From the NCBI GenBank assembly GCA_021736575.1, contig JAIPFP010000021.1:1-44502 (forward strand): a stretch of 44,502 nucleotides of DNA. Direction: 5' to 3'. Position numbers and translations under genes: made by a program. Source of the stretch: Pirellula sp. Its GTDB lineage: Bacteria; Planctomycetota; Planctomycetia; Pirellulales; Pirellulaceae. The notes under the pieces were generated by a model. It was given only the letters and a program-made list of their open reading frames with translations. It was not told where the DNA came from and searched no databases. Positions 2,881-21,512 of the stretch are shown in pieces. Position 1 is the stretch's first letter, and each line of letters opens with the position of its first letter.

Positions 2881-3816
2881 TCAAGTGAGTTTGGCGATTA
2901 TACCAAGATAGCCGACAATTGCTGTCGGCAACAAGGAATCTGTAACATCCCACACACCTCCTAAGCCAGGTAGCAGTGTTCCGCTATCCTTTGCCCCAAC
3001 TGCTCGCTTAATCATCGATTCCAGCAAATCCCCTACAAGACCTACCAGCGTCAAAAGGCAACCAAGCAGAGCGGGTCCCCACCACGTTGTCCCGGCTGTG
3101 CCACCGCACATCGGCAACAACAATCGGAGGAAGACGTAAGCGATGACGACACTCATGAGCATTCCGCCGATGAGTCCCTCGACCGTTTTGCCGGGACTTA
3201 TGGCGGATATCAATTTGTGTCGGCCCATGGATTTCCCTGCAAAATACGCACCGGTATCTGCGAACTTCACGATCGCCAACATCGAGATCAAGTTGAGGAT
3301 ACCTTGCAACGAGCTCCCTTGCATTCGAACAAGAAACCAGACGCTCATACAACCAACGATATACACGATCACGAAGCAGGACAAGATCCACGCTAGAGTT
3401 GTTCGCTCGCCATGCGACGTTTCGAGCGGCATCGTTTGTTGAGTTCGCTGGAACGAATAGAGAGCATGAACGCCGCTGCTACCAACCCCAGTCAAAACGC
3501 CGATCAGAATCCAACCCGCTCGACCGACGGGGCAATCCGCAGGGTAAGAAACGCTCATCACGAAGCTATACCACAAAGGAAACATGCAAACCACACATGC
3601 GATCGCGCTGTGAACGAGCAAGCTCTTCGGCGAAACATACCACTTGCGTGCGAGAAGCTGACTTGCCTCCCAACCCGTCCCCAGCGTAAATGCGATGAAC
3701 AGTGGAATCAACCACATACCCGCTTGGCCACCGACGGGCCATTTCAGATCTAAGCCAATGGACAAGAGCGCGACGCATATCAAACAGGCCGCTGAAATCA
3801 GTCTCCGGTTAAGCAT
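2881..3816 (-). CDS. cdsA: phosphatidate cytidylyltransferase
   Basis: A 311-residue polytopic membrane protein predicted to convert phosphatidate and CTP to CDP-diacylglycerol, the branch point of phospholipid synthesis. The C-terminal signature region (about residues 267-296) reads SMIKRAVGAKDSG then LLPGLGGVWDVTDSLL. The KR and KD residues and final acidic residues of the CdsA signature are present. The usual PGHGG is PGLGG, and the usual D-R-x-D is D-V-T-D. An upstream ISPGKTVEG segment also fits the family. No strong Shine-Dalgarno precedes ATG 3816. The gap to ychF is 48 bases. Confidence 0.88.
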   Translation of the reverse strand: MLNRRLISAACLICVALLSIGLDLKWPVGGQAGMWLIPLFIAFTLGTGWEASQLLARKWYVSPKSLLVHSAIACVVCMFPLWYSFVMSVSYPADCPVGRAGWILIGVLTGVGSSGVHALYSFQRTQQTMPLETSHGERTTLAWILSCFVIVYIVGCMSVWFLVRMQGSSLQGILNLISMLAIVKFADTGAYFAGKSMGRHKLISAISPGKTVEGLIGGMLMSVVIAYVFLRLLLPMCGGTAGTTWWGPALLGCLLTLVGLVGDLLESMIKRAVGAKDSGTLLPGLGGVWDVTDSLLPTAIVGYLGIIAKLT

Positions 3817-3864
3817 AGAATGTGTTGTCTTTCTTGCAGTCTATGCAATGTGTCGCCGACTCCA

Positions 3865-4956
3865 TCAAACGTTGAATAAGAAGTGACAGATGTCGCCATC
3901 TTGCATAACGTACGTTTTTCCTTCGGTTCTCAGCTTGCCAGCTAACCGAATCTCCTTTTCGCTCCCGTATTTTTCCAGGTCGTCCAACGAAAAGACTTCG
4001 CAGCGAATAAAACCGCGTTCGAAATCGCTATGGATTACGCCAGCCCCTTGCGGAGCCGTCGCACCGACAGGAACCGTCCAAGCTCGAACTTCCTTTTCGC
4101 CTGCAGTGAAGTAGCTTTGTAGTCCGAGCGTTTGATAGGCTCGTTGCGCGACAACTTGCAGAGCCGGTTGTTCAAGCCCAACGGCTGCGAGCATTTCGCT
4201 ACGGTCGGGGTCGTCGAGTTCAGCGATTTCGGCCTCAAGCTTGGCGCATACCGGGACAACTTGTGCACCCACTTTCTCAGCGTAGACGCGGATTTTGGAA
4301 ACCAATTCGCTGGTACCTTGCAAATCATTCTCGTCGACATTGGCGATGAAAAGGATGGGTTTTGCGGTCATCAAACCAAAGCTGGCGATGGCTTTGGCTT
4401 CCGATTCGTCCATCTTGAGTTTTCTCAGGGGCAGATACTTGTTCAATTGCTCGAGACAGGTTTGGATGCCGCTAACTCGCAGTTTGGCTTCTTTGTCGCC
4501 GCCACGACCTGCGCGTTCTGCCTTGGGCAGCGCGTTTTCCAACGTTTGAATGTCGGAGAACATCAACTCCATTTCAATGGTTTCAATATCCGCCAACGGA
4601 TCGACTTTCCCGCCAACGTGGGTTACGTCGGGATCGATGAAGCAACGCACGACTTGGAGGATAGCGTCGACTTCGCGGATGTGACTCAAGAACTTGTTGC
4701 CAAGCCCTTGACCTTCACTCGCACCTTTGACAATGCCGGCGATATCCACCAGCTTGAGCATGGCTGGTATGACCTTTTGAGGGCCAACCAGCTTAGCAAT
4801 TCGATCTAAACGATTGTCGGGGACACTGATGATCCCTTCGTTAGGGTCGATGGTGCAGAACGGATAATTTGCGGCTTGAGCCGATTGCGAACCGGTCAGC
4901 GCATTGAACAACGTACTTTTGCCTACATTGGGTAGGCCAACAATTCCAGCTTCCAT
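3865..4956 (-). CDS. ychF: YchF/OLA1 family ATPase
   Basis: A 363-residue TRAFAC-class NTPase. The P-loop GLPNVGKST is at residues 7-15, and the switch region [17 protein letters not shown] is clear. The position normally occupied by NKxD reads NVDE, which agrees with the known ATP rather than GTP preference of YchF/OLA1 proteins. The C-terminal TGS-like domain ends in CHFLFNV, the usual family ending. YchF associates with ribosomes and is linked to translation and redox stress. It starts 15 bases after lysS, so the two are probably in one transcript. Confidence 0.95.
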
Positions 4957-4971
4957 TTTGGGGCGAACGTC

Positions 4972-6579
4972 CTAGCTTTCGTGGCGCATGAGTGGGAACA
5001 GTACAACGTCGCGAATGCTGCGCGAGTTTGTTAGCAACATAATAAGTCGATCGATACCAATTCCGAGACCTCCTGCGGGAGGCATACCGTACCTGAGCGC
5101 ACGAACGAAATCGGTATCCATTTTGGCCATTGAATCTTCTTCCGCCATGCCGTCGAGCTGGGTCTTAAACAACTCTTCCTGAAGGATCGGGTCATTGAGT
5201 TCGGTGTACGCGTTGGCCAATTCCATCCCATGAATAAACAGTTCAAACCGTTCTGCAATATCCGGATTGCCCGCCTTTCGCTTGGTCAATGGGCAAATGC
5301 TGGCCGGGTAGTCGATGACAAAGATCGGACCGATGAGCGAGTCCTCGACTTTTTCTTCGAAGACTTCGCTCTTGATAACGTCAGGGTGCTTGCCCGTTGT
5401 GACGATGCCGAGTTTCCGAGCGAGTTGAGCGATTCCTTCGCTGTCGGAGGTCTTCAAACCCGTGTGTTCTTCGAATAGATCGCTGTACGTTCTGCGTTGG
5501 AATGGCGGAGTAAAGTCGATATCGAGGTCACCCCATTTTAGCTTGTAGCCTTGGCCCGTCGCCTCGATCGCTTCGACGATGATTTGTTGCGTCAGGTCCA
5601 TCATGGTTTCGTAATTGGCATACGCCCAATAGAGTTCGATCATCGTGAACTCTGGATTATGTTTTGGACTAATCCCTTCGTTTCGATAGACCCGTCCCAT
5701 TTCATACACTCGCTCGATACCCCCCACCAACAATCGCTTGAGGTGAAGTTCGAGCGCGATTCGCAGGAACAATTTCATGTCGAGCGCGTTGTGGTGTGTG
5801 ACGAACGGACGGGCGGCCGCACCACCCGCGATCGTGTGCAATGTCGGGCCCTCGACTTCGACGAACTGATGTTTGGCCAACGTCGCTCGGATCGAGTGAA
5901 CGATCTTCGTCCGATTCAAAAACGTATGCAGTGAGTCGGTATTGTAAGTCAAATCGACGTACCGCATTCGCTGACGAAGTTCGGCATCTTGGAGCCCCGC
6001 GTGTTTTTCGGGTGGCGGCTCAAGTGTCTTGGTCATGAAATGCAGTTTGCTCGCGAACACGGTCAGTTCGCCCGTGTTAGTTCGTCCTAATCGGCCATCA
6101 ATACCGACAAGGTCACCAAAGTCGAGGAGTTTGGCGAGATCGAAGTCTTCGTCGGAGACATGTCCCTTGGCGATCATGATTTGGATGTCGCCAGTCCAGT
6201 CGCGAATGTTCAAGAAGAAAAGCTTGCCTGCGGTCCGGAGCAGCATGATCCGGCCTGCGACGCGAACGATTGGCCCAACTTCCTCGCCCGGGCCTTGACT
6301 GGCTTTCCAGCCCTTGTAATCAAAGCTTGCACGAACCTCCGAAGTGTCATTTTGCCCTTTTTCCGAAGGCGGAAAGTTAGGTAAAGGAATTAAGGAACCG
6401 TCTTCTTTGCGGAAATGAATTTGTGCCGCCAGTTCACGAACCGGGCCGATAAACGTCCGATCGTCGAATCGTGCTCCCCAAGGATCTAGGCCAAGTGCTT
6501 CGATTTTCTTGAGTTTTTCAAGCCTTGCTGCTTGATGGACACCTAAACCGGTGTTGTCTTGTTCGAGAGAATCGGCCAT
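4972..6579 (-). CDS. lysS: lysyl-tRNA synthetase, class II
   Basis: A 535-residue enzyme that charges tRNA-Lys. An N-terminal OB-fold (RVAGRIMLLRTAGKLFFLNI) precedes the class II catalytic core. Motif 2 appears as YRNEGISPKHNPEFTMIELY and motif 3 as GLGIGIDRLIMLLT near the C-terminus. The N-terminal domain carries an insert with a run of prolines (LPNFPPSEKGQ) between the opening helix and the OB-fold. I chose ATG 6579 (MADSLEQDN), because an in-frame start at 6696 would add 39 residues without family character and overlap the divergent receiver gene at 6677. First gene of the five-gene minus-strand run. Confidence 0.95.
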   Translation of the reverse strand: MADSLEQDNTGLGVHQAARLEKLKKIEALGLDPWGARFDDRTFIGPVRELAAQIHFRKEDGSLIPLPNFPPSEKGQNDTSEVRASFDYKGWKASQGPGEEVGPIVRVAGRIMLLRTAGKLFFLNIRDWTGDIQIMIAKGHVSDEDFDLAKLLDFGDLVGIDGRLGRTNTGELTVFASKLHFMTKTLEPPPEKHAGLQDAELRQRMRYVDLTYNTDSLHTFLNRTKIVHSIRATLAKHQFVEVEGPTLHTIAGGAAARPFVTHHNALDMKLFLRIALELHLKRLLVGGIERVYEMGRVYRNEGISPKHNPEFTMIELYWAYANYETMMDLTQQIIVEAIEATGQGYKLKWGDLDIDFTPPFQRRTYSDLFEEHTGLKTSDSEGIAQLARKLGIVTTGKHPDVIKSEVFEEKVEDSLIGPIFVIDYPASICPLTKRKAGNPDIAERFELFIHGMELANAYTELNDPILQEELFKTQLDGMAEEDSMAKMDTDFVRALRYGMPPAGGLGIGIDRLIMLLTNSRSIRDVVLFPLMRHES

Positions 6580-13698: not shown

Positions 13699-14991
13699 AT
13701 GCCGAGCGCCATCATCATTGGAGCGGGTCTTTCAGGATTGACCGCTGCTCGCAAGTTGCATCGATCCAATTGGTCCGTCCGTCTGCTTGAGACTCGCGAT
13801 CGAATCGGTGGCAGAATCCAGACAGATGCGGTGGATGGCTTCATGCTTGACCACGGTTTTCAAGTCTATTTGACTGGTTACAAAATGGCTGGGCAAGAGC
13901 TCGATTTGCCTTCGTTGAAACTGGGTGCATTTCCGGCTGGAGCGCTCATTCAAACCAACGGCAAACGCTATCGAGTCTGCGATCCGCTACGATCGCCTTG
14001 GTATATGGCTCCCAAGCATGCCATCGAAACGATGCTTGCACCGGTTGGTTCGTTTGCGGATAAATGGAATATCGCCAAATTCCGCCAACGCGTTTGCAGT
14101 GCAGATGAAGTTCAAATGCTTGGCGTACAACAAGTGACGGCTCGCGCCCGGCTTGAGCAAATGGGTTTTTCCAACCTCATCATCGAGAAATTCTTCCGTC
14201 CTTTCTTTGGCGGGATTTTTCTGGACAAATCCCTGAGTGTGTCCGCAGGCTTGATGGAATTCGTGTTCCGGACATTTAGCCAAGGATTCGCAGCGTTGCC
14301 TGGAAACGGTATGCAAGCCATACCTGATCAGATCGCTTCCTCGCTACCATCGGAAACGATTCAGCTCAATACGACGGTGGCAAGCGTTGAAGCGGATCAT
14401 CTAGTCCTTTCCACTGGCGAGCTTCGTACAGCGGATTGCATTATCATCGCTACCGAAGAGCCTACCGCAAGGCGACTGCTGAACTCTAATACTGGATCGA
14501 TGAAACAAGAAGCTGCGCAGGTAGCGTGCGCTTCGACAAGCTGCCTTTACTTTTCAGTTGAAAACCCACCGATTCGTGAAGCCACGTTGGTGCTGAACGG
14601 AGACGGCGAAGGCATCATTAATAATCTCTGTTTCCCAAGCTTTGCCCAGCCAACTTACGCACCTGTTGGGCGAGCTCTATTGAGCGTGAGTACAATCGGT
14701 CACATCGAGCCAACTGGAGAGGCTTTATTGGATTCCGTCATGAACCAGCTTGCGGACTGGTTTGGACCATCTGCGAGAACGTGGCAACACTTACGGACCT
14801 ATCGAGTTCCATATGCATTGCCAAACCAGTCCCCCGAGAATCTCGCAACGCGTTCCGTTCATTCGAGATTGAGCGAACGAGTTTATCGATGTGGCGACTA
14901 TTGCGAATCGGGAAGCATCGAAGGAGCAATCCAAAGCGGCCTCAAGGTTGCCGACTTAGTAATCCGGAAGAGCGAGTCACTCACTTTGTAG
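13699..14991 (+). CDS. FAD-dependent amine-oxidase / protoporphyrinogen-oxidase-like protein
   Basis: A 430-residue flavoprotein. The N-terminal dinucleotide motif IIIGAGLSGLTAARKL and the following ETRDRIGGRIQT are typical of the amine oxidase / phytoene desaturase superfamily. A C-terminal FAD motif reads VYRCGDYCESGSIEGAIQSG. The substrate is not identifiable; squalene, carotenoid and porphyrin enzymes all share this layout. The ATG follows the mnmG stop with no gap, so it should be translationally coupled to mnmG. No Shine-Dalgarno of its own was seen. Confidence 0.8.
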   Translation: MPSAIIIGAGLSGLTAARKLHRSNWSVRLLETRDRIGGRIQTDAVDGFMLDHGFQVYLTGYKMAGQELDLPSLKLGAFPAGALIQTNGKRYRVCDPLRSPWYMAPKHAIETMLAPVGSFADKWNIAKFRQRVCSADEVQMLGVQQVTARARLEQMGFSNLIIEKFFRPFFGGIFLDKSLSVSAGLMEFVFRTFSQGFAALPGNGMQAIPDQIASSLPSETIQLNTTVASVEADHLVLSTGELRTADCIIIATEEPTARRLLNSNTGSMKQEAAQVACASTSCLYFSVENPPIREATLVLNGDGEGIINNLCFPSFAQPTYAPVGRALLSVSTIGHIEPTGEALLDSVMNQLADWFGPSARTWQHLRTYRVPYALPNQSPENLATRSVHSRLSERVYRCGDYCESGSIEGAIQSGLKVADLVIRKSESLTL

Positions 14992-15101: not shown

Positions 15102-16793
15102 ATGCGTGGCATCGACCTTGATTCTTTTTCTCAGCATTGCGGGGCGATTCGGTTGGACGATCGATCCCGACGATGCAAAGTCAGCGGAGTTGTAGCGAGA
15201 CTACGATTCGTGGTCGTAATTGTTTTATTCTTCATTGTGGGCAACACGTCATTACTTTCCCAACAGGTCTCGGATCGATACGCTCAAATCCCTGGGGACT
15301 CGTTGAGTATCACGTCCATCGATTTCGAAACGATTCGAAACCTCAAAGAACTGGAAATGGTGCCTTGGGAGATTCTTGCTGCATTTGGCAAGCAGGAATT
15401 GGGAATCGACCCGATGTTGATCTCAACCATAGATTTCACGAGTGGCCTACCCAGTCTCAACGGTCTTGAATTTGGGATTGTTATTAGAACGAAAGCGCCT
15501 GTTGATATCGCGCAGCTCAACGGTCGTCTTTTTTCGGATATGACGCGCGCGCCTAAGAACCAAAACATGAAAGTACGAAGCCTTAACGACGCGCCTGCCA
15601 AGGTCGTCCAGTTAGAGCCGCTAACGGTTATGGTTGGCTCGGAGGGAACGCTGCGACGCATGCTTGCCGGCAAAGTCCAGACGAGCAAGACGATTGAGTT
15701 GATTGGCAAGTCGAAATACCCATTCCGATCGATCACAGCCATCGAACCATTGCGACCAATCATCGAAGGAGCCCTGGCGGATGCGAGCGGCGCGATCCCT
15801 CCCCAGTTCTTGTCTGACCTTCAAGTGGTCGCGGACGAACTGTCGTACATTCAAACCGAGAGCAGCGTCGGCTTATCCGCCGAAGTCGTTCTCAAATTAG
15901 GTGCCAGAGACAAGGACTCCATCGAGAGACTCGTGATCTCCCTTGAACGGCTACGAAAGAACGGCCTTGTATTCGCCGAAGCGATGGTCAAACAACAAAT
16001 TCAGAACGACCGTCAAATGACGCCAGAAGTGAAAACGGCAGCCTTGCAATACGTCCAGCGAATGAAAGGATTCCTGGCAACAGCGGATCTGTGGAACGTC
16101 GTCGGGGACGAGATTGTTATGGACGGGAGAGTCGCCTATTCCGTTCCGACCATAGGTGTTTTGGTCGGCTTGCTTCTGCCTGCTGTGCAAGCGGCTCGGG
16201 AAGCTGCGCGGCGGATGAGTTCGCAGAACAACATGAAGCAGATCATGCTTGCAATGCTTAACCACGAATCTGCCTTCAAGCAATTCCCAGCTCGAGCAAC
16301 CCGCGACGCCGATGGCAAGCCGCTGCTAAGTTGGAGAGTCAAGATCCTGCCGTTCCTAGAGGAAAACGGTCTTTATCAAGAATTCCATCAGGACGAACCA
16401 TGGGACAGCGAGCACAACATCAAGCTACTTGAGAGGATGCCCGCTGTTTATAAGCATCCTAGCTATGTTGGGCCAGAAGGCCACACGGTCTACTTGGTGC
16501 CCTATCAAAAAGGGAATGTTTGGACTTCGGCGAAACCTCAAATAAGAAACATCACGGACGGTACGTCGAACACGATTGCATGCTTTGAAACCAACGATGA
16601 GCATGCCGTTCCTTGGTCGAAACCGGACGATATCGATTTGGACCAAGATGACATTTTCGATTTTTTCCGTTTCGGCGCTTCCAACGTCGGGATGTTTGAT
16701 GGCAGTGTCCGAGCGATTGCACCCTCGATCGATCCGGTTGTCTTGAAGGCAATGATGACAAGCGCGGGAGGCGAAGTTGTGCAACTGCCTTAG
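15102..16793 (+). CDS. exported DUF1559 protein with long N-terminal domain
   Basis: A 563-residue protein. A hydrophobic segment at about 35-54 looks like a signal anchor. Residues 55-345 form a domain I do not recognise. At 355 the typical planctomycete pilin-like helix LLLPAVQAAREAARRM begins, and the DUF1559 (SBP_bac_10) domain follows with its end motif GMFDGSVRAI. In most DUF1559 proteins this helix lies directly at the N-terminus. Start 15102 is the longest option; a TTG at 15153 would give a more ordinary signal peptide. DUF1559 function is unknown. It is convergent with the hydrolase at 16899. Confidence 0.85.
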   Translation: MRGIDLDSFSQHCGAIRLDDRSRRCKVSGVVARLRFVVVIVLFFIVGNTSLLSQQVSDRYAQIPGDSLSITSIDFETIRNLKELEMVPWEILAAFGKQELGIDPMLISTIDFTSGLPSLNGLEFGIVIRTKAPVDIAQLNGRLFSDMTRAPKNQNMKVRSLNDAPAKVVQLEPLTVMVGSEGTLRRMLAGKVQTSKTIELIGKSKYPFRSITAIEPLRPIIEGALADASGAIPPQFLSDLQVVADELSYIQTESSVGLSAEVVLKLGARDKDSIERLVISLERLRKNGLVFAEAMVKQQIQNDRQMTPEVKTAALQYVQRMKGFLATADLWNVVGDEIVMDGRVAYSVPTIGVLVGLLLPAVQAAREAARRMSSQNNMKQIMLAMLNHESAFKQFPARATRDADGKPLLSWRVKILPFLEENGLYQEFHQDEPWDSEHNIKLLERMPAVYKHPSYVGPEGHTVYLVPYQKGNVWTSAKPQIRNITDGTSNTIACFETNDEHAVPWSKPDDIDLDQDDIFDFFRFGASNVGMFDGSVRAIAPSIDPVVLKAMMTSAGGEVVQLP

Positions 16794-16806
16794 AAGTCCA
16801 AAACAT

Positions 16807-16862
16807 AGTCGCCTTTCGCTCCGCGAAAGCAGCGTTGACGACGTATCTTTCGCGGATAGGCT
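16807..16862 (+). repeat. palindromic intergenic element, family R2 copy A
   Basis: CTTTCGC (16813-16819) and GCGAAAG (16823-16829) form a perfect stem with a TCC loop. The core TTTCGCTCCGCGAAAG is followed after a spacer by ATCTTTCGCGGA. The same order of blocks occurs on the minus strand at 21429-21475. It lies between two convergent genes and might also end transcripts, but it has no T-run next to the stem. Confidence 0.65.
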
Positions 16863-16898
16863 GTGATTTTTTGGATGGACCACTTTTTATCGGTTGCC

Positions 16899-17735
16899 TT
16901 ACATGATCAAGCAATGAAATCTTGCAATCGATTCAGCCAGCTGCTCGGGACTTGAAATCGGCATCCAATGAGTTCCGTCCACGACGATTTCAAGTGTCGA
17001 GCCAGGAATGGTTTGATGCAGTCGCGTTGCTTGAATGATCGGAAAGTGCTTGTCATTCTCTGCCCAAAGAATTAAAGTTGGGCAGCGGATGGGAGCATAC
17101 AGCCTGGGCAACTGGTCCAAGGTTCCTTGATAACCCGAACACATCTTGCTGATGAATCGACGGACTTCGGGTGATGAAAAAGCGTTCCAGAAATCTTGCC
17201 GCAATGGCTCGTCGATACGCTCGCTCTTCTTCAAAAACGTTTTTTGAGCCCGTCGAAAGATCAAGCCTGGCAACGTTCGCAGGGCAAACCGGTTAAAGCC
17301 GAAATGGCGCAGCAATCGGATCTCCCAGGATGTACTTTCGTCGCCAAAGACAAGCGAATTCATCACAACCAATTGTTTGATGCGTTCCGGAAACATCGAA
17401 GCAAAAGCCAGTGCAGGTTGCCCTCCCATGTCCATTCCGACCACAGTGGGACGTGCCAAATGCAAGTCATCCAAAATCGTTAATAGGCGTTTTGCCAATA
17501 ACTGAGGAGTTGCACCTCCGGGCCACTGTTCGCTGTAACCCATTCCTGGCCAGTCGAAGGCAATGACCTCAAACTGTTCCGCTAGCAACGGCCCAAGTCT
17601 ACTCCAGATCTGCAACGTTTCTGGATAACCATGCAAGAATACGATCGGTTGGCCTTGGCCAAGACGCGCGATACGTAGAAGCCTTCCGTTGCTTAATGGA
17701 ATTTGTTCCGTTGACAGAAGCGACGTAGCTTTCAT
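16899..17735 (-). CDS. alpha/beta hydrolase with Asp nucleophile (epoxide hydrolase / dehalogenase-like)
   Basis: A 278-residue alpha/beta-hydrolase. The oxyanion segment FLHGYPET (33-40) is of the epoxide hydrolase/dehalogenase kind. The nucleophile elbow reads VVGMDMGGQP, placing Asp (D102) where esterases have Ser. A candidate acid lies in WAENDKHFP (D228) and the His in DGTHWMP (H256). Enzymes with this triad include epoxide hydrolases, haloalkane dehalogenases and OleB-type beta-lactone decarboxylases; the reaction here is undetermined. I chose ATG 17735 because it overlaps the upstream stop as ATGA, showing tight coupling to the CrtI-like gene. The longer frame (start 17795) lacks support. 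Confidence 0.85.
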   Translation of the reverse strand: MKATSLLSTEQIPLSNGRLLRIARLGQGQPIVFLHGYPETLQIWSRLGPLLAEQFEVIAFDWPGMGYSEQWPGGATPQLLAKRLLTILDDLHLARPTVVGMDMGGQPALAFASMFPERIKQLVVMNSLVFGDESTSWEIRLLRHFGFNRFALRTLPGLIFRRAQKTFLKKSERIDEPLRQDFWNAFSSPEVRRFISKMCSGYQGTLDQLPRLYAPIRCPTLILWAENDKHFPIIQATRLHQTIPGSTLEIVVDGTHWMPISSPEQLAESIARFHCLIM

Positions 17736-19162
17736 CTCCCGTCCCTCGCATCCTTCAAGAGTTGATCTGCTGCAAGGATTCCACTCACGGCACAAAAGCT
17801 AACCCATTGCCCAGGATGGGTTGCACTTCCTGAATGGTACAGGTTCCGAATCCATGGACTTCTGTGTGCAATTCTCCCCGACAACATAAACCTTGAAGTC
17901 ATCACGGGATTCATGCTCTGATGGTAGAGGTTGAATTGGCCTCCCCACTCGTTCGGGATGCGAGTGCGCAATACACGTACTTCGTCGAACAATTCGCGCC
18001 ACCAGCTTTCGGTCTCGACGACTCGGTGAAGGAAATCACGTTGCCCTAGCTCTCCGCCTGTCTCAGCACGTGCGTGCCCCATAGGAGCGATCAATCTAGC
18101 GGGAAACCAACCGTTCTTTTCGAGCGACGGATCGATCACACCTGGAGTGACTAACAGTCTGCACCCATCGAGCTCATTTCGAAGCCGGAATCTCAGATAG
18201 GGAGGATTCGGCTTCCCTTTCACAGCAAGGTATGCACATATGCCAGGTGATTGCAGTGGCAATCGATTGAAGTAGTTCCTAGTTCGATTGGGCAAGGCAG
18301 CTTGACCGTTTTCGTCCAGCAGGGACAGATATGAAGCAAGTCCTACATTGGATACTATTGCATCCGCAGATAATGTTTCGGCCTCTATCGCGACTCCGAT
18401 CACTTTGTTTTTGACGCAACGAATGCGACTAACCTTTGTGCTAAAACGAAACTCGACACCTTCCTCTACCGCTTTTTCGAACAAAACCTCGGGAATCGTC
18501 CCAATGCCACCTTTTGGATAGCACGCTCCCACTTGATGAATCACCGATGTGACGAGAGCTAAAGGTGATGGTGCTTTATCCGCCAGTTGACCAGCCACGT
18601 GCGTCCATATCCCGAGCGCTTGCACAACCGATTCAGGCAGCCGCGAAGATCGAAAAACAGAACCTAGCGATTGCAAAACAAACGGAATGTCTTGAACCGC
18701 ACCGCTCCGAACCACATCTAGAATCCCCGGTCGCGATTTCCATTGCAACGGTTGTAGCCTTCCATAGGTCGAACTCGTCCGTTCGATAAAACGTCGGTAG
18801 TGTATTCCGCAGCCCGGCCAACGGGCGTCCAGCTCCGCAGCGGTTTTCTCAAACGAATCGTGTATTGAAACTGGAAGTGCGGAACCGTCATCAACCTGAT
18901 AGACATGCGAAATCCGTTCCAGCTGCAGATGAAGATTCGGATCGATTCCCAATCGCCCGAATGCCCATTCAAGCCCAGGGCGATCGAGCAAGACATACGG
19001 CCCAGTGTCAAATCGAAAACCCTCCAGTTCAAAACCCGACGCCAAACCTCCGACGGACGAGCGTGCTTCAACTATAGTTACCTTCCAACCGTCTTGAGCC
19101 AATCGAATCGCCGAACATAGCCCACCGATCCCTGCTCCAATTACAACAACCCGTCGAGTCAT
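17732..19162 (-). CDS. CrtI-like (phytoene desaturase family) FAD oxidoreductase
   Basis: A 476-residue flavoprotein of the phytoene desaturase superfamily. The N-terminus VVVIGAGIGGLCSAIRLA, the VEARSSVGGLASGF segment and FRFDTGPYVL match CrtI-type enzymes. The C-terminal FAD motif reads YHSGSATHPGQWVSFCAVSG. Related enzymes desaturate, isomerise or hydrate isoprenoids, and a few act on other lipids. No phytoene synthase or prenyltransferase of carotenoid type is in the window, so carotenoid synthesis is not established. It is the middle gene of a three-gene operon: 7 bases after the diiron-DUF362 stop and 4-base overlap with the hydrolase. Confidence 0.85.
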   Translation of the reverse strand: MTRRVVVIGAGIGGLCSAIRLAQDGWKVTIVEARSSVGGLASGFELEGFRFDTGPYVLLDRPGLEWAFGRLGIDPNLHLQLERISHVYQVDDGSALPVSIHDSFEKTAAELDARWPGCGIHYRRFIERTSSTYGRLQPLQWKSRPGILDVVRSGAVQDIPFVLQSLGSVFRSSRLPESVVQALGIWTHVAGQLADKAPSPLALVTSVIHQVGACYPKGGIGTIPEVLFEKAVEEGVEFRFSTKVSRIRCVKNKVIGVAIEAETLSADAIVSNVGLASYLSLLDENGQAALPNRTRNYFNRLPLQSPGICAYLAVKGKPNPPYLRFRLRNELDGCRLLVTPGVIDPSLEKNGWFPARLIAPMGHARAETGGELGQRDFLHRVVETESWWRELFDEVRVLRTRIPNEWGGQFNLYHQSMNPVMTSRFMLSGRIAHRSPWIRNLYHSGSATHPGQWVSFCAVSGILAADQLLKDARDGR

Positions 19163-19169
19163 TTCGGCC

Positions 19170-21032
19170 TCATGAGTCTAACTCCGCCACGTTCATCCCA
19201 AGCAACCAACGGACGGCCCGACGAGTCATCTTCAAAACAAATCCTTCGCGATGAATCAATGGAAAGGCATGCTTGTCCATGTTAGGCACGAAAAGCGACC
19301 CTCGACCACTTCCCATAACATAAACTGGATAGGCCATGATACTTAAGAGTGCCCGAAGTTCATTATGGTACGGACCTCGCCAGTTCTTGATCACCGAATC
19401 ATCGCCGACAACTTCGACTTTGTTTTCTGTACCTCCGAACCACTGAGAAGTGCTTCGCAACATGCTAGATGATTCGTACTGTTCGACCCCTATGTGCCGT
19501 AGCGTTATCTTATCGACAGCGAATGCATCGGCGCCTGCATAAAATCGCATCGGGTGAATTGGACTTTTGCTACCCATCACACCCACAAGGCCATCTGGTA
19601 CGTCTTCATAAGCATCGACGATTCCAAAGTGAGGTGGGAAATCGTTGAGTAGCATCATAACTGCGGTAGAGCGATCGGCCTGTCTTTCAAGAAACAAGTA
19701 TTCGTCGCAACGGCCTCCAACCCACTCGATATTGCCGACGCACAGCAATGCCATTTCAATCGGATGACTCCTCAGTTTAGGGAACGAAATCCGAAAGTCC
19801 GCATTGCACCATGTTTCGGCGATCGTGTACTGAGCCATTCCCCGCGAATATTGGTGCCGAATCTGATCTTCTTCAGTATCGATGATTCGGTAATTCCTGG
19901 ATCGGAAGCCAAAGTAGTCTGCGACTGCATGGACCGAGCGGTTTAGAAAGAAGCGATCGTAGATATTGCGTCCTTCGATGACAACGATGTCAGAGCAGCC
20001 GCATTCACCTAAAAAGGTAGCAAGATCGTCAACTAGTTCAGGAGATGTCAACGGTGACAAGTCGTTTCGATGGTAACCAAGCATGAACGTCGGCTTGACG
20101 GCAATCTTCATTTGCTCCATTGGTACCTTTAAGAACTCAGAACGCATCCGAATCGTGTCAACTAGGCCGCATTCATCCAACAGTCGTCGGAATAGCTCCC
20201 GTTTCTCGCTACGAACCGTGGTACTAAGTACATGCACTAGGCTACCGCTGCCGATCGGTTTTTCGACAACCGAATGACGCCTTTGCTCGCGCGGCAGGAA
20301 CTCTTCACCAACCATTCGAATCTGCTCGACGATCGATTCGAACGAGTGTTTCGTGTCCAACGTGTCGTGCTCTGTCAAAGCGTCTGCCAAGATTTGAAAC
20401 ACCTTGCAGTGTCGATCTTCGTCCATAGCAACTCGAACAAAGTCGCGAGCAAGCTGAGCGTCAAGGTCCGGTTGAGACGCCGCCAATTCCGCGATTCGAT
20501 ACCAACAGACAGCTGCCGTTTGCTCGGCATCAATGTTGAAAACGCAGAAGTTTCGGAACGGACCAAGCTGCAAATGCTTTTTCACGTCACGCGGGACTTT
20601 TCCCACAAACCCGCCAATGGCAGTGATGATTGTTGCGGCGAATCGCGAAAAGGGTGCTCGGCTCCATCGAGTGTGTTGAAGCACCGATCCTGCCCATCCC
20701 CCAACGCCTCCGGCGGCTTGAGTCATGAAGGCTTGAACCCGCAATCTCCACCCCCCCAGTTTGAGAATCGCGCCTCGGATGTAAATAGTGTGCATTTCCT
20801 CATCCTTCCAAATCCAGATGAGCGAGTGTTTCAAGAGATCCTTGACTTCTTCAGCGACTGGCATTGCGGCTATTCGCTGCTGCATTAGAGACTCGCGATA
20901 GCCAATCGACACGAGCTCCTCTCGTTCCAACGCCAACATGAATAGTTGTATCAATTCACGCCGTGGATTGTCGAAGCACTTCTTGCGGATGACAGCAAGT
21001 TCACGCTCAAATTCGTCGTAGACTGCACCCAT
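19170..21032 (-). CDS. ferritin-like diiron domain fused to DUF362
   Basis: A 620-residue two-domain protein. Residues 1 to about 250 are helical and carry two ExxH motifs, E78-x-x-H81 (DEEMH) and E205-x-x-H208 (DEDRH), plus acidic helix residues near E36-E39 and E170. This is the ligand pattern of a four-helix diiron protein. Residues ~305-520 match DUF362 from memory: AVKPTFMLGY, TSPELVDDLATFL, ISFPKLRSHP, then a GADAFAVDKITLRHIG segment. There is no signal peptide or clear membrane helix. First gene of the operon, with a 480-base leader region shared with tex. Ferritin-like proteins of this kind can be oxygenases, desaturases or peroxidases; the function of DUF362 is poorly known. The fusion itself is the clearest observation. 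Confidence 0.8.
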   Translation of the reverse strand: MGAVYDEFERELAVIRKKCFDNPRRELIQLFMLALEREELVSIGYRESLMQQRIAAMPVAEEVKDLLKHSLIWIWKDEEMHTIYIRGAILKLGGWRLRVQAFMTQAAGGVGGWAGSVLQHTRWSRAPFSRFAATIITAIGGFVGKVPRDVKKHLQLGPFRNFCVFNIDAEQTAAVCWYRIAELAASQPDLDAQLARDFVRVAMDEDRHCKVFQILADALTEHDTLDTKHSFESIVEQIRMVGEEFLPREQRRHSVVEKPIGSGSLVHVLSTTVRSEKRELFRRLLDECGLVDTIRMRSEFLKVPMEQMKIAVKPTFMLGYHRNDLSPLTSPELVDDLATFLGECGCSDIVVIEGRNIYDRFFLNRSVHAVADYFGFRSRNYRIIDTEEDQIRHQYSRGMAQYTIAETWCNADFRISFPKLRSHPIEMALLCVGNIEWVGGRCDEYLFLERQADRSTAVMMLLNDFPPHFGIVDAYEDVPDGLVGVMGSKSPIHPMRFYAGADAFAVDKITLRHIGVEQYESSSMLRSTSQWFGGTENKVEVVGDDSVIKNWRGPYHNELRALLSIMAYPVYVMGSGRGSLFVPNMDKHAFPLIHREGFVLKMTRRAVRWLLGMNVAELDS

Positions 21033-21198
21033 GATTGCCTATACTTTGTCGCACGATTCGAGCTTCCGCAGGTATACAAACAATCTACAGACCTGATTGG
21101 CCCGAGCCCACTGAAGTCTCGAATGATACTATACCACCTGCGGACCGATCGCGGTTGTAACTCAATCCACTTAGCATTTTTTGAGTTCCATCAGTAGT

Positions 21199-21217
21199 CG
21201 AGTCTTTCCGAGACTCG
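21199..21217. repeat. perfect 7-bp hairpin
   Basis: CGAGTCT and AGACTCG around a TTCCG loop, in the region upstream of the diiron-DUF362 gene. It may be an operator or leader hairpin. Confidence 0.45.
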
Positions 21218-21222
21218 CGAAA

Positions 21223-21246
21223 GGAGGCAGAAGAGGAGGCAGAAGG
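21223..21246. repeat. 12-base tandem duplication
   Basis: GGAGGCAGAAGA (21223-21234) is followed directly by GGAGGCAGAAGG (21235-21246). Confidence 0.7.
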
Positions 21247-21428
21247 GGACACTCCACTTTGGCATCGAAGGCTAGAGACCAAGCGACTTTTCTTGTGCAA
21301 TGAATGTACGATTCGGATTGCTGCACAGGGATTAGCACCTCGTGCGGTGCCACCTACTGCGGGATTCGGGCAACCGGTGCGTCAAATAGGGCGGAAAGAC
21401 GTCCGATGCGTCTAATAGTATAAAATCA

Positions 21429-21475
21429 GTGCTCTGCGAAAGATCGCCACATTCGCTGAGCGAAAGTCGCCACTC
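21429..21475 (-). repeat. palindromic intergenic element, family R2 copy B
   Basis: Read on the minus strand, TTTCGCTCAGCGAA is followed by GCG and ATCTTTCGCAGA, the same order of blocks as copy A at 16807-16862 but with a shorter spacer. On the plus strand it appears as a direct repeat GCGAAAG(A)TCGCCAC at 21436-21450 and 21460-21473. It ends 37 bases before the tex ATG. Confidence 0.6.
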
Positions 21476-21512
21476 ATTGTTCGAACGTACCTGACGATAG
21501 AAATCAAACATA

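Follow-up and report, generated by a model that had tools for sequence, protein, structure and literature searches.

What could be accomplished jointly by a predicted O2-activating protein, a flavoprotein and a hydrolase whose genes are packed without appreciable spacing? This question is raised by a locus in contig JAIPFP010000021.1 of Pirellula sp. (assembly GCA_021736575.1), of which positions 1 to 44,502, hereafter referred to as the window, were analyzed. Gene 1 encodes a fusion of a predicted ferritin-like diiron domain with a DUF362 domain, gene 2 a putative CrtI-like oxidoreductase and gene 3 a putative Asp-nucleophile hydrolase (Table 1). A sequence-only reading of the window had described this trio as an operon packed so closely that one junction is a 7-base gap and the other an ATGA overlap, and its coordinates proved exact: 7 bases (19163–19169) separate gene 1 from gene 2, while genes 2 and 3 share the ATGA at 17735–17732. 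The observation itself is thus confirmed, and the interpretation built upon it is partly supported. A three-enzyme, O2-dependent oxidative tailoring is the simplest and most likely account of the trio; its reaction order, the role of the DUF362 domain and the substrate are what we infer. Tentatively, and with somewhat less than even confidence, we regard the trio as a self-contained tailoring module that is gained or lost en bloc and whose target is a single small hydrophobic molecule (acyl chain, isoprenoid or quinone-like compound). The trio points to an undescribed pathway, probably modifying a fatty or terpene-like molecule: no description of the three-gene unit was found in a literature search, and no characterized pathway matched it, in agreement with the earlier statement that no described pathway with this set was known.

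The proposal that the genes form one unit was borne out by comparison of genomes. Counting the gene-1 proteins that span both domains, the window's own included, 18 distinct loci were obtained, and in 14 of these all three genes adjoin on a single contig (the window, L017, L018, L020–L026, G155, G232, G310 and G484). Gene order and direction match those of the window in 13 of the 14 intact loci; in a Chitinophagaceae bin (L025) gene 1 is inverted and points away from genes 2 and 3. Two of the 18 loci are interrupted by contig ends: in G354 genes 1–2 are visible before the contig end, and in L019 the contig stops within gene 2, the remainder of gene 2 being located, together with gene 3, at the terminus of a second contig from that genome. 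The conserved order exceeds chance, because it recurs in contigs of Planctomycetota, Acidobacteria and, with gene 1 inverted, Chitinophagaceae. The genes also co-occur at the level of whole genomes, as in the phylum sample of 384 genomes searched at 1e-40 gene 2 was detected in five and gene 3 in four, each carrying a two-domain gene 1. Pairwise identities of the three proteins over 11 common loci are tightly correlated (r 0.93–0.97; 0 of 2000 permutations as high), which argues against swapping between units, although shared descent alone could produce such a correlation too.

The expectation that the three families would be neighbors in related genomes held for the more distant genomes, as described above, and failed within the genus: gene 1, and hence the trio, was not found in any of the 26 other same-genus genomes searched, and among 60 genomes of relatives searched at 1e-10 its own genome was the single one with a match. 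Across the window's phylum (392 genomes, 1e-8) matches occurred in 16 genomes, ten of them confined to the C-terminal part of gene 1 and six spanning both domains (the own genome, G103, G155, G232, G310 and G354; the gene 1 start of G310, removed by a contig end, is missing, and this copy was still counted as two-domain). Ten further loci (L017–L026) were revealed in named GTDB contigs, seven of them planctomycete (three Fuerstiella), two acidobacterial and one from the Chitinophagaceae bin. In the phylum of L024, gene 1 was matched at 1e-30 in 5 of 297 genomes, three matches, L024 itself among them, spanning both domains; in the phylum of L025, the only match among 296 genomes was L025 itself.

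No constant partners accompany the trio. Clustering of 328 open reading frames (at least 80 amino acids) from the window and 20 loci, i.e., 21 sequences, revealed no flanking family recurring beyond 3 of the 21. A single non-trio family reaches three loci (L020, L022 and L030), three families (clusters 4, 5 and 6) occur in two loci each, a trio locus included, and the other shared flanking families are tied to DUF362-only loci, one of them also to L025. L019 and L020 have seven neighbors in common, by synteny. With flanking recurrence limited to this extent, the substrate would be expected to be something that many bacteria already make.

The N-terminal domain of gene 1 was modelled with a mean predicted local distance difference test score (pLDDT) of 76 and is predicted to contain long helices at residues 23–43, 61–92, 159–185 and 192–218. 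The presumed iron ligands, E38, E78xxH81, E170 and E205xxH208 (E / ExxH / E / ExxH), sit on these four helices. Counting the window, E38, E78 and H81 are invariant in 17 of 17 sequences, the start of L031 being lost at a contig end, and E170, E205 and H208 in all 18. The assignment of this half as a ferritin-like diiron domain is motif-led, not proven; the invariant motifs and predicted helices uphold the diiron claim of the sequence-only reading as far as they go, while the claim lacks a significant family match.

The DUF362 label stood firm, as PF04015 matched gene 1 with 37.7 bits against a gathering cut-off of 24, and DUF362 was matched in all 15 gene-1 members scanned (E 1 or better). To this label our analysis adds a tie to lactate racemase, since DUF362 and DUF2088/LarA belong to one Pfam clan, CL0471, according to PMC11770544. 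In LarA, His174 is a catalytic acid/base (PMC12611868, PMC11770544), Lys184 anchors the nickel-pincer cofactor, and nickel is bound by His200 (PMC11770544, PMC9283937). Ordinary DUF362 proteins display His, Lys (+10) and His (+26) in seven of seven cases (L032–L036, L040 and L041), and the same spacing is present in 19 of 20 LarA homologs from relatives, the search motif not being found in one. The gene-1 family retains just the first His (18/18; H423, 19764–19766, in the window), while the Lys position is occupied by G, A, S, P or N (Gly at residue 433, 19734–19736) and the second-His position by E or D in 18 of 18 sequences (Glu at residue 449, 19686–19688). Pairing of these positions with LarA relies on spacing and a non-significant profile alignment, both sequence sets being small and related. 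The shared clan and the matching triple make the residue parallel a good lead, with a nickel-pincer-like cofactor as a possible ligand of ordinary DUF362 proteins; from the same parallel, both cofactor anchors are presumed to be lost in the gene-1 family. Searches of solved-structure sequences with gene 1 and one ordinary DUF362 protein gave no usable match. Apart from the fusion, long DUF362 proteins of 734–947 amino acids with an N-terminal part unmatched in Pfam are encoded in L032 (6480–8681), L033 (7547–10387) and L036 (8519–11317); in L033 the gene is lined up with a small gene and one for a GMC oxidoreductase, and L036 holds genes of the same two clusters.

The enzyme types proposed by the sequence-only reading for all three genes fit our data. 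Gene 2, by its profile matches a divergent CrtI-like flavoprotein, was recognized by the Pfam families Amino_oxidase, DAO and NAD_binding_8; it scores 154.4 bits with TIGR02734, below the curated cut-off of 238.1, and 61 bits with TIGR03467 (HpnE, hydroxysqualene dehydroxylase), below the cut-off of 283. Its nearest solved structures are 4rep and 4dgk. In the defence library, one ‘C-3',4' desaturase’ model matched residues 4–47 of gene 2 (E 8.9e-15), and nothing matched genes 1 and 3. Gene 3, matched by Abhydrolase_1, is by its motifs an Asp-nucleophile hydrolase: the HGYP motif, Asp102 and His256 are present in all 14 aligned proteins, an alignment that leaves out the broken L023 copy. Over its full length, including the lid, the protein aligns with the epoxide hydrolase structure 5ng7, and Tyr202 (Tyr in 13 of 14) falls on the YY pair of the latter. 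Epoxide hydrolases of the alpha/beta fold are expected to possess two lid tyrosines. Other hydrolases score as well as or above 5ng7 over parts of gene 3, and none of the classes that it resembles, namely esterases, ring-fission-product hydrolases, epoxide hydrolases and fluoroacetate dehalogenases, stands out clearly.

Taken together, the joint retention of the trio and the invariance of its catalytic-type residues support a tailoring sequence of the following kind. The ferritin-like domain of gene 1 would hold two irons and activate O2, hydroxylating, epoxidizing or desaturating the substrate; the DUF362 domain, in which one catalytic-type His is kept, could then move a proton or hydride at the oxygenated carbon or, alternatively, merely bind the polar end of the substrate. 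The CrtI-like flavoprotein might dehydrogenate or isomerize the chain, and the Asp-nucleophile hydrolase would open an epoxide or lactone, or free the product, via a covalent ester. A bolder version, which we consider somewhat unlikely, treats gene 1 as a new bifunctional enzyme, a diiron O2-activating oxygenase joined to a lactate-racemase-clan domain with the acid/base His kept, the cofactor Lys lost and the metal-ligand His replaced by a carboxylate. Oxygenation of a hydrophobic chain and the subsequent rearrangement at the oxygenated carbon would both take place on one polypeptide, the trio making an undescribed lipid or isoprenoid modification; if so, ordinary DUF362 proteins, in which all three residues are kept, would bind a nickel-pincer-like cofactor.

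A number of observations weigh against the tailoring module as formulated here. Neither the substrate nor the order of steps is named by any of the present data. In two of the 18 loci, G103 and G467, gene 1 occurs alone and so can stand by itself; no gene-2 match at 1e-12 was found in these two genomes, and their hydrolases are only distant ones (24–32% identical). Because such gene-1-only genomes exist, it is suggested that gene 1 performs the core step. Each of the ten named loci comes from a metagenome bin, so that a lone-phylum case such as the Chitinophagaceae bin could be due to mis-binning, and in the acidobacterial bin L023 genes 2 and 3 look broken, each lying in two frames (3727–5617), through either assembly error or decay. 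Concerning the individual proteins, the N-terminal half of gene 1 gave just weak matches in Pfam (FA_desaturase_2, Rubrerythrin and DUF455), with no significant family or PDB sequence match for the domain, and none of the Foldseek matches to the gene-1 models reached E 0.001; with the full-length model the output was mostly noise, because the DUF362 part is poorly predicted over much of its length (mean pLDDT 63.7), and the better model obtained from the N-terminal domain alone did not change this outcome. The DUF362–LarA profile alignment is not significant (probability 0.2%, E 0.3), though it pairs precisely the His, Lys and His positions considered, gap-free. In gene 3, the acid position D228 holds D in 12 of the 14 proteins and E or N in one protein each, and no conserved candidate for a second lid tyrosine was found in the alignments.

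Among other explanations, a branch of carotenoid tailoring, in which gene 2 desaturates or isomerizes a carotenoid, gene 1 oxygenates it and gene 3 trims or hydrolyzes the product, is suggested by the solved structures closest to gene 2, which are carotenoid desaturases. The own genome encodes, on other contigs, two CrtI-family proteins that could supply the substrate, the gene of one being preceded by an aldehyde-dehydrogenase-like gene. These proteins, however, exceed the TIGR02734 cut-off (548 and 412 bits, the latter belonging to the one beside the aldehyde-dehydrogenase-like gene), unlike gene 2, and when both of them and the aldehyde dehydrogenase were used as tblastn queries (1e-10) against the window and 18 fetched loci, whose flanks are of limited extent, gene 2 itself was the sole match; further carotenoid genes were not sought. 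With regard to the refuting condition set in the sequence-only reading, membership in a characterized carotenoid pathway, the trio thus appears distinct from the carotenoid pathway of the genome, and we consider the carotenoid branch unlikely.

The same low probability is assigned to a catabolic or detoxification module, which would oxidize and open a compound from the environment, whether aromatic, terpenoid or halogenated. The sporadic distribution of the trio is in favor of this possibility, as is the resemblance of gene 3 to several hydrolase classes, fluoroacetate dehalogenases included. A catabolic island, however, might show transporters or regulators, whereas the flanking families recur in at most 3 of the 21 sequences; gene 1 had no match in 72,556 plasmid records (1e-5), and no relative of it was present among 28 pattern matches in viral contigs. 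Moreover, typical haloalkane dehalogenases have Trp after the nucleophile Asp, whereas Met103 directly follows Asp102 in 14 of 14 gene-3 proteins. Very unlikely, in our opinion, is a third possibility, that the N-terminal domain is no oxygenase and rather represents a rubrerythrin- or Dps-like domain handling metal or peroxide and protecting or feeding the other activities. Its best plausible fold match is indeed a Dps-like di-metal protein (probability 0.99–1.00, E 0.12–0.24), ranked by Foldseek below a designed helical protein (E 0.019), and Rubrerythrin gave a weak match in 4 of 15 gene-1 members. Against it, the 12 Pfam families recorded for these 15 members do not include a rubredoxin domain, and fusion to an enzyme-type domain in an operon with two lipid-type enzymes appears to fit catalysis better.

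Table 1. Features of the trio locus (positions in the window).
Feature	Position	Strand	Description
Gene 1, predicted diiron-DUF362 fusion	19170..21032	(-)	620 aa; predicted ferritin-like diiron domain + DUF362 domain
Gene 1, N-terminal domain, residues 1–257	20262..21032	(-)	predicted four-helix bundle, presumed diiron ligands
Gene 1, DUF362 domain, residues 310–511	19500..20105	(-)	PF04015, E 2.8e-9
Gene 2, putative divergent CrtI-like FAD (flavin adenine dinucleotide) oxidoreductase	17732..19162	(-)	476 aa; TIGR02734, 154 bits
Gene 3, putative alpha/beta hydrolase	16899..17735	(-)	278 aa; HGYP, nucleophile Asp102 (17430–17432), His256 (16968–16970)
Segment with the trio	16821..21482	n/a	DNA matching G009 (a same-genus genome) ends at both edges

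In the window, mnmG, an HpnE-like gene and the gene of a DUF1559 protein, all on the opposite strand, converge on gene 3, and on the other side the gene of a Tex protein reads away from gene 1. The HpnE-like flavoprotein gene (13699–14991) begins directly past the mnmG stop codon, its product scoring 75 bits against the cut-off of 283. A stretch of about 95 bases at 16793–16888, covering the last part of the DUF1559 gene plus sequence downstream, is a dispersed repeat with 22 matches in the same-genus genome G009 (E 1e-10 or better); an Rfam scan of the window, this repeat included, gave zero matches.

In composition the trio gave no signal of transfer, its G+C content (51.0%) being close to that of the window (51.7%). 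Comparison with G009, which lacks gene 1, revealed 88–92% DNA identity for the left block (to 16820), Tex (from 21483) and a MATE–cytochrome block (from 23808), Tex itself reaching 92% and the blocks on either side 88–91%; in G009 the three lie on three different contigs. Within the segment carrying the trio, matches to G009 are limited to 21197–21354 and the repeat end 16821–16888, both located elsewhere there. A direct junction, i.e., a clean empty site, was not found in G009, where the left contig ends 133 bases past the match. The DNA matches break at 16820, 21483, 23690 and 23808, isolating Tex too. By this comparison, the stretch reads as a mosaic extending past the trio. Protein divergence was also considered: gene 1 is 73–77% identical in L017–L020, where Tex is 60–63% identical, while in L022 and L026 the values are roughly equal (gene 1 64 and 67 vs. 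Tex 66), and in the L021 genome the Tex match is partial (42%). Tex itself is patchy, being detected in 15 of 23 genomes at 1e-60 and missing in 5 of 11 same-genus ones. Consequently, the divergence of gene 1 relative to Tex may be taken as a weak hint of transfer, since a gene missing in 8 of 23 genomes is a poor yardstick.

The possible significance of the trio is twofold. A compact three-gene unit without recurrent partners, occurring in distant environmental bacteria, could be transferred whole to a laboratory host and its product searched for. In turn, an approach to DUF362, a domain of unknown function, is opened: its binding of a cofactor can be put to a direct test through the His/Lys/His spacing that is common to ordinary DUF362 proteins and LarA homologs and is altered in the gene-1 family.

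In comparison with known systems, gene 3 shares with soluble epoxide hydrolases such as 5ng7 the HGxP motif, the Asp nucleophile, the His and one lid Tyr position, and differs in that one of the two expected lid tyrosines was found and in an acid that is not strictly conserved. The N-terminal half of gene 1 resembles ferritin-like diiron proteins (acyl-acyl carrier protein desaturase, rubrerythrin and Dps-like proteins) in four long predicted helices that carry the E / ExxH / E / ExxH pattern, and is distinguished from them by the lack of a significant sequence match, by a stretch of some 66 residues, most of it poorly predicted, that separates helix 2 from helix 3, and by the fusion to DUF362. 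The latter domain is linked with DUF362 and LarA proteins by the family match and the invariant first His, whereas the Lys and the second His, presumed equivalents of Lys184 and His200 of LarA, are replaced. Finally, gene 2 is similar in its FAD-binding N-terminus, its middle part and a C-terminal HPG motif to phytoene desaturases of the CrtI/CrtN type (TIGR02734), from which it departs in scoring 154 bits under the cut-off of 238 and in being placed in an operon with genes 1 and 3.

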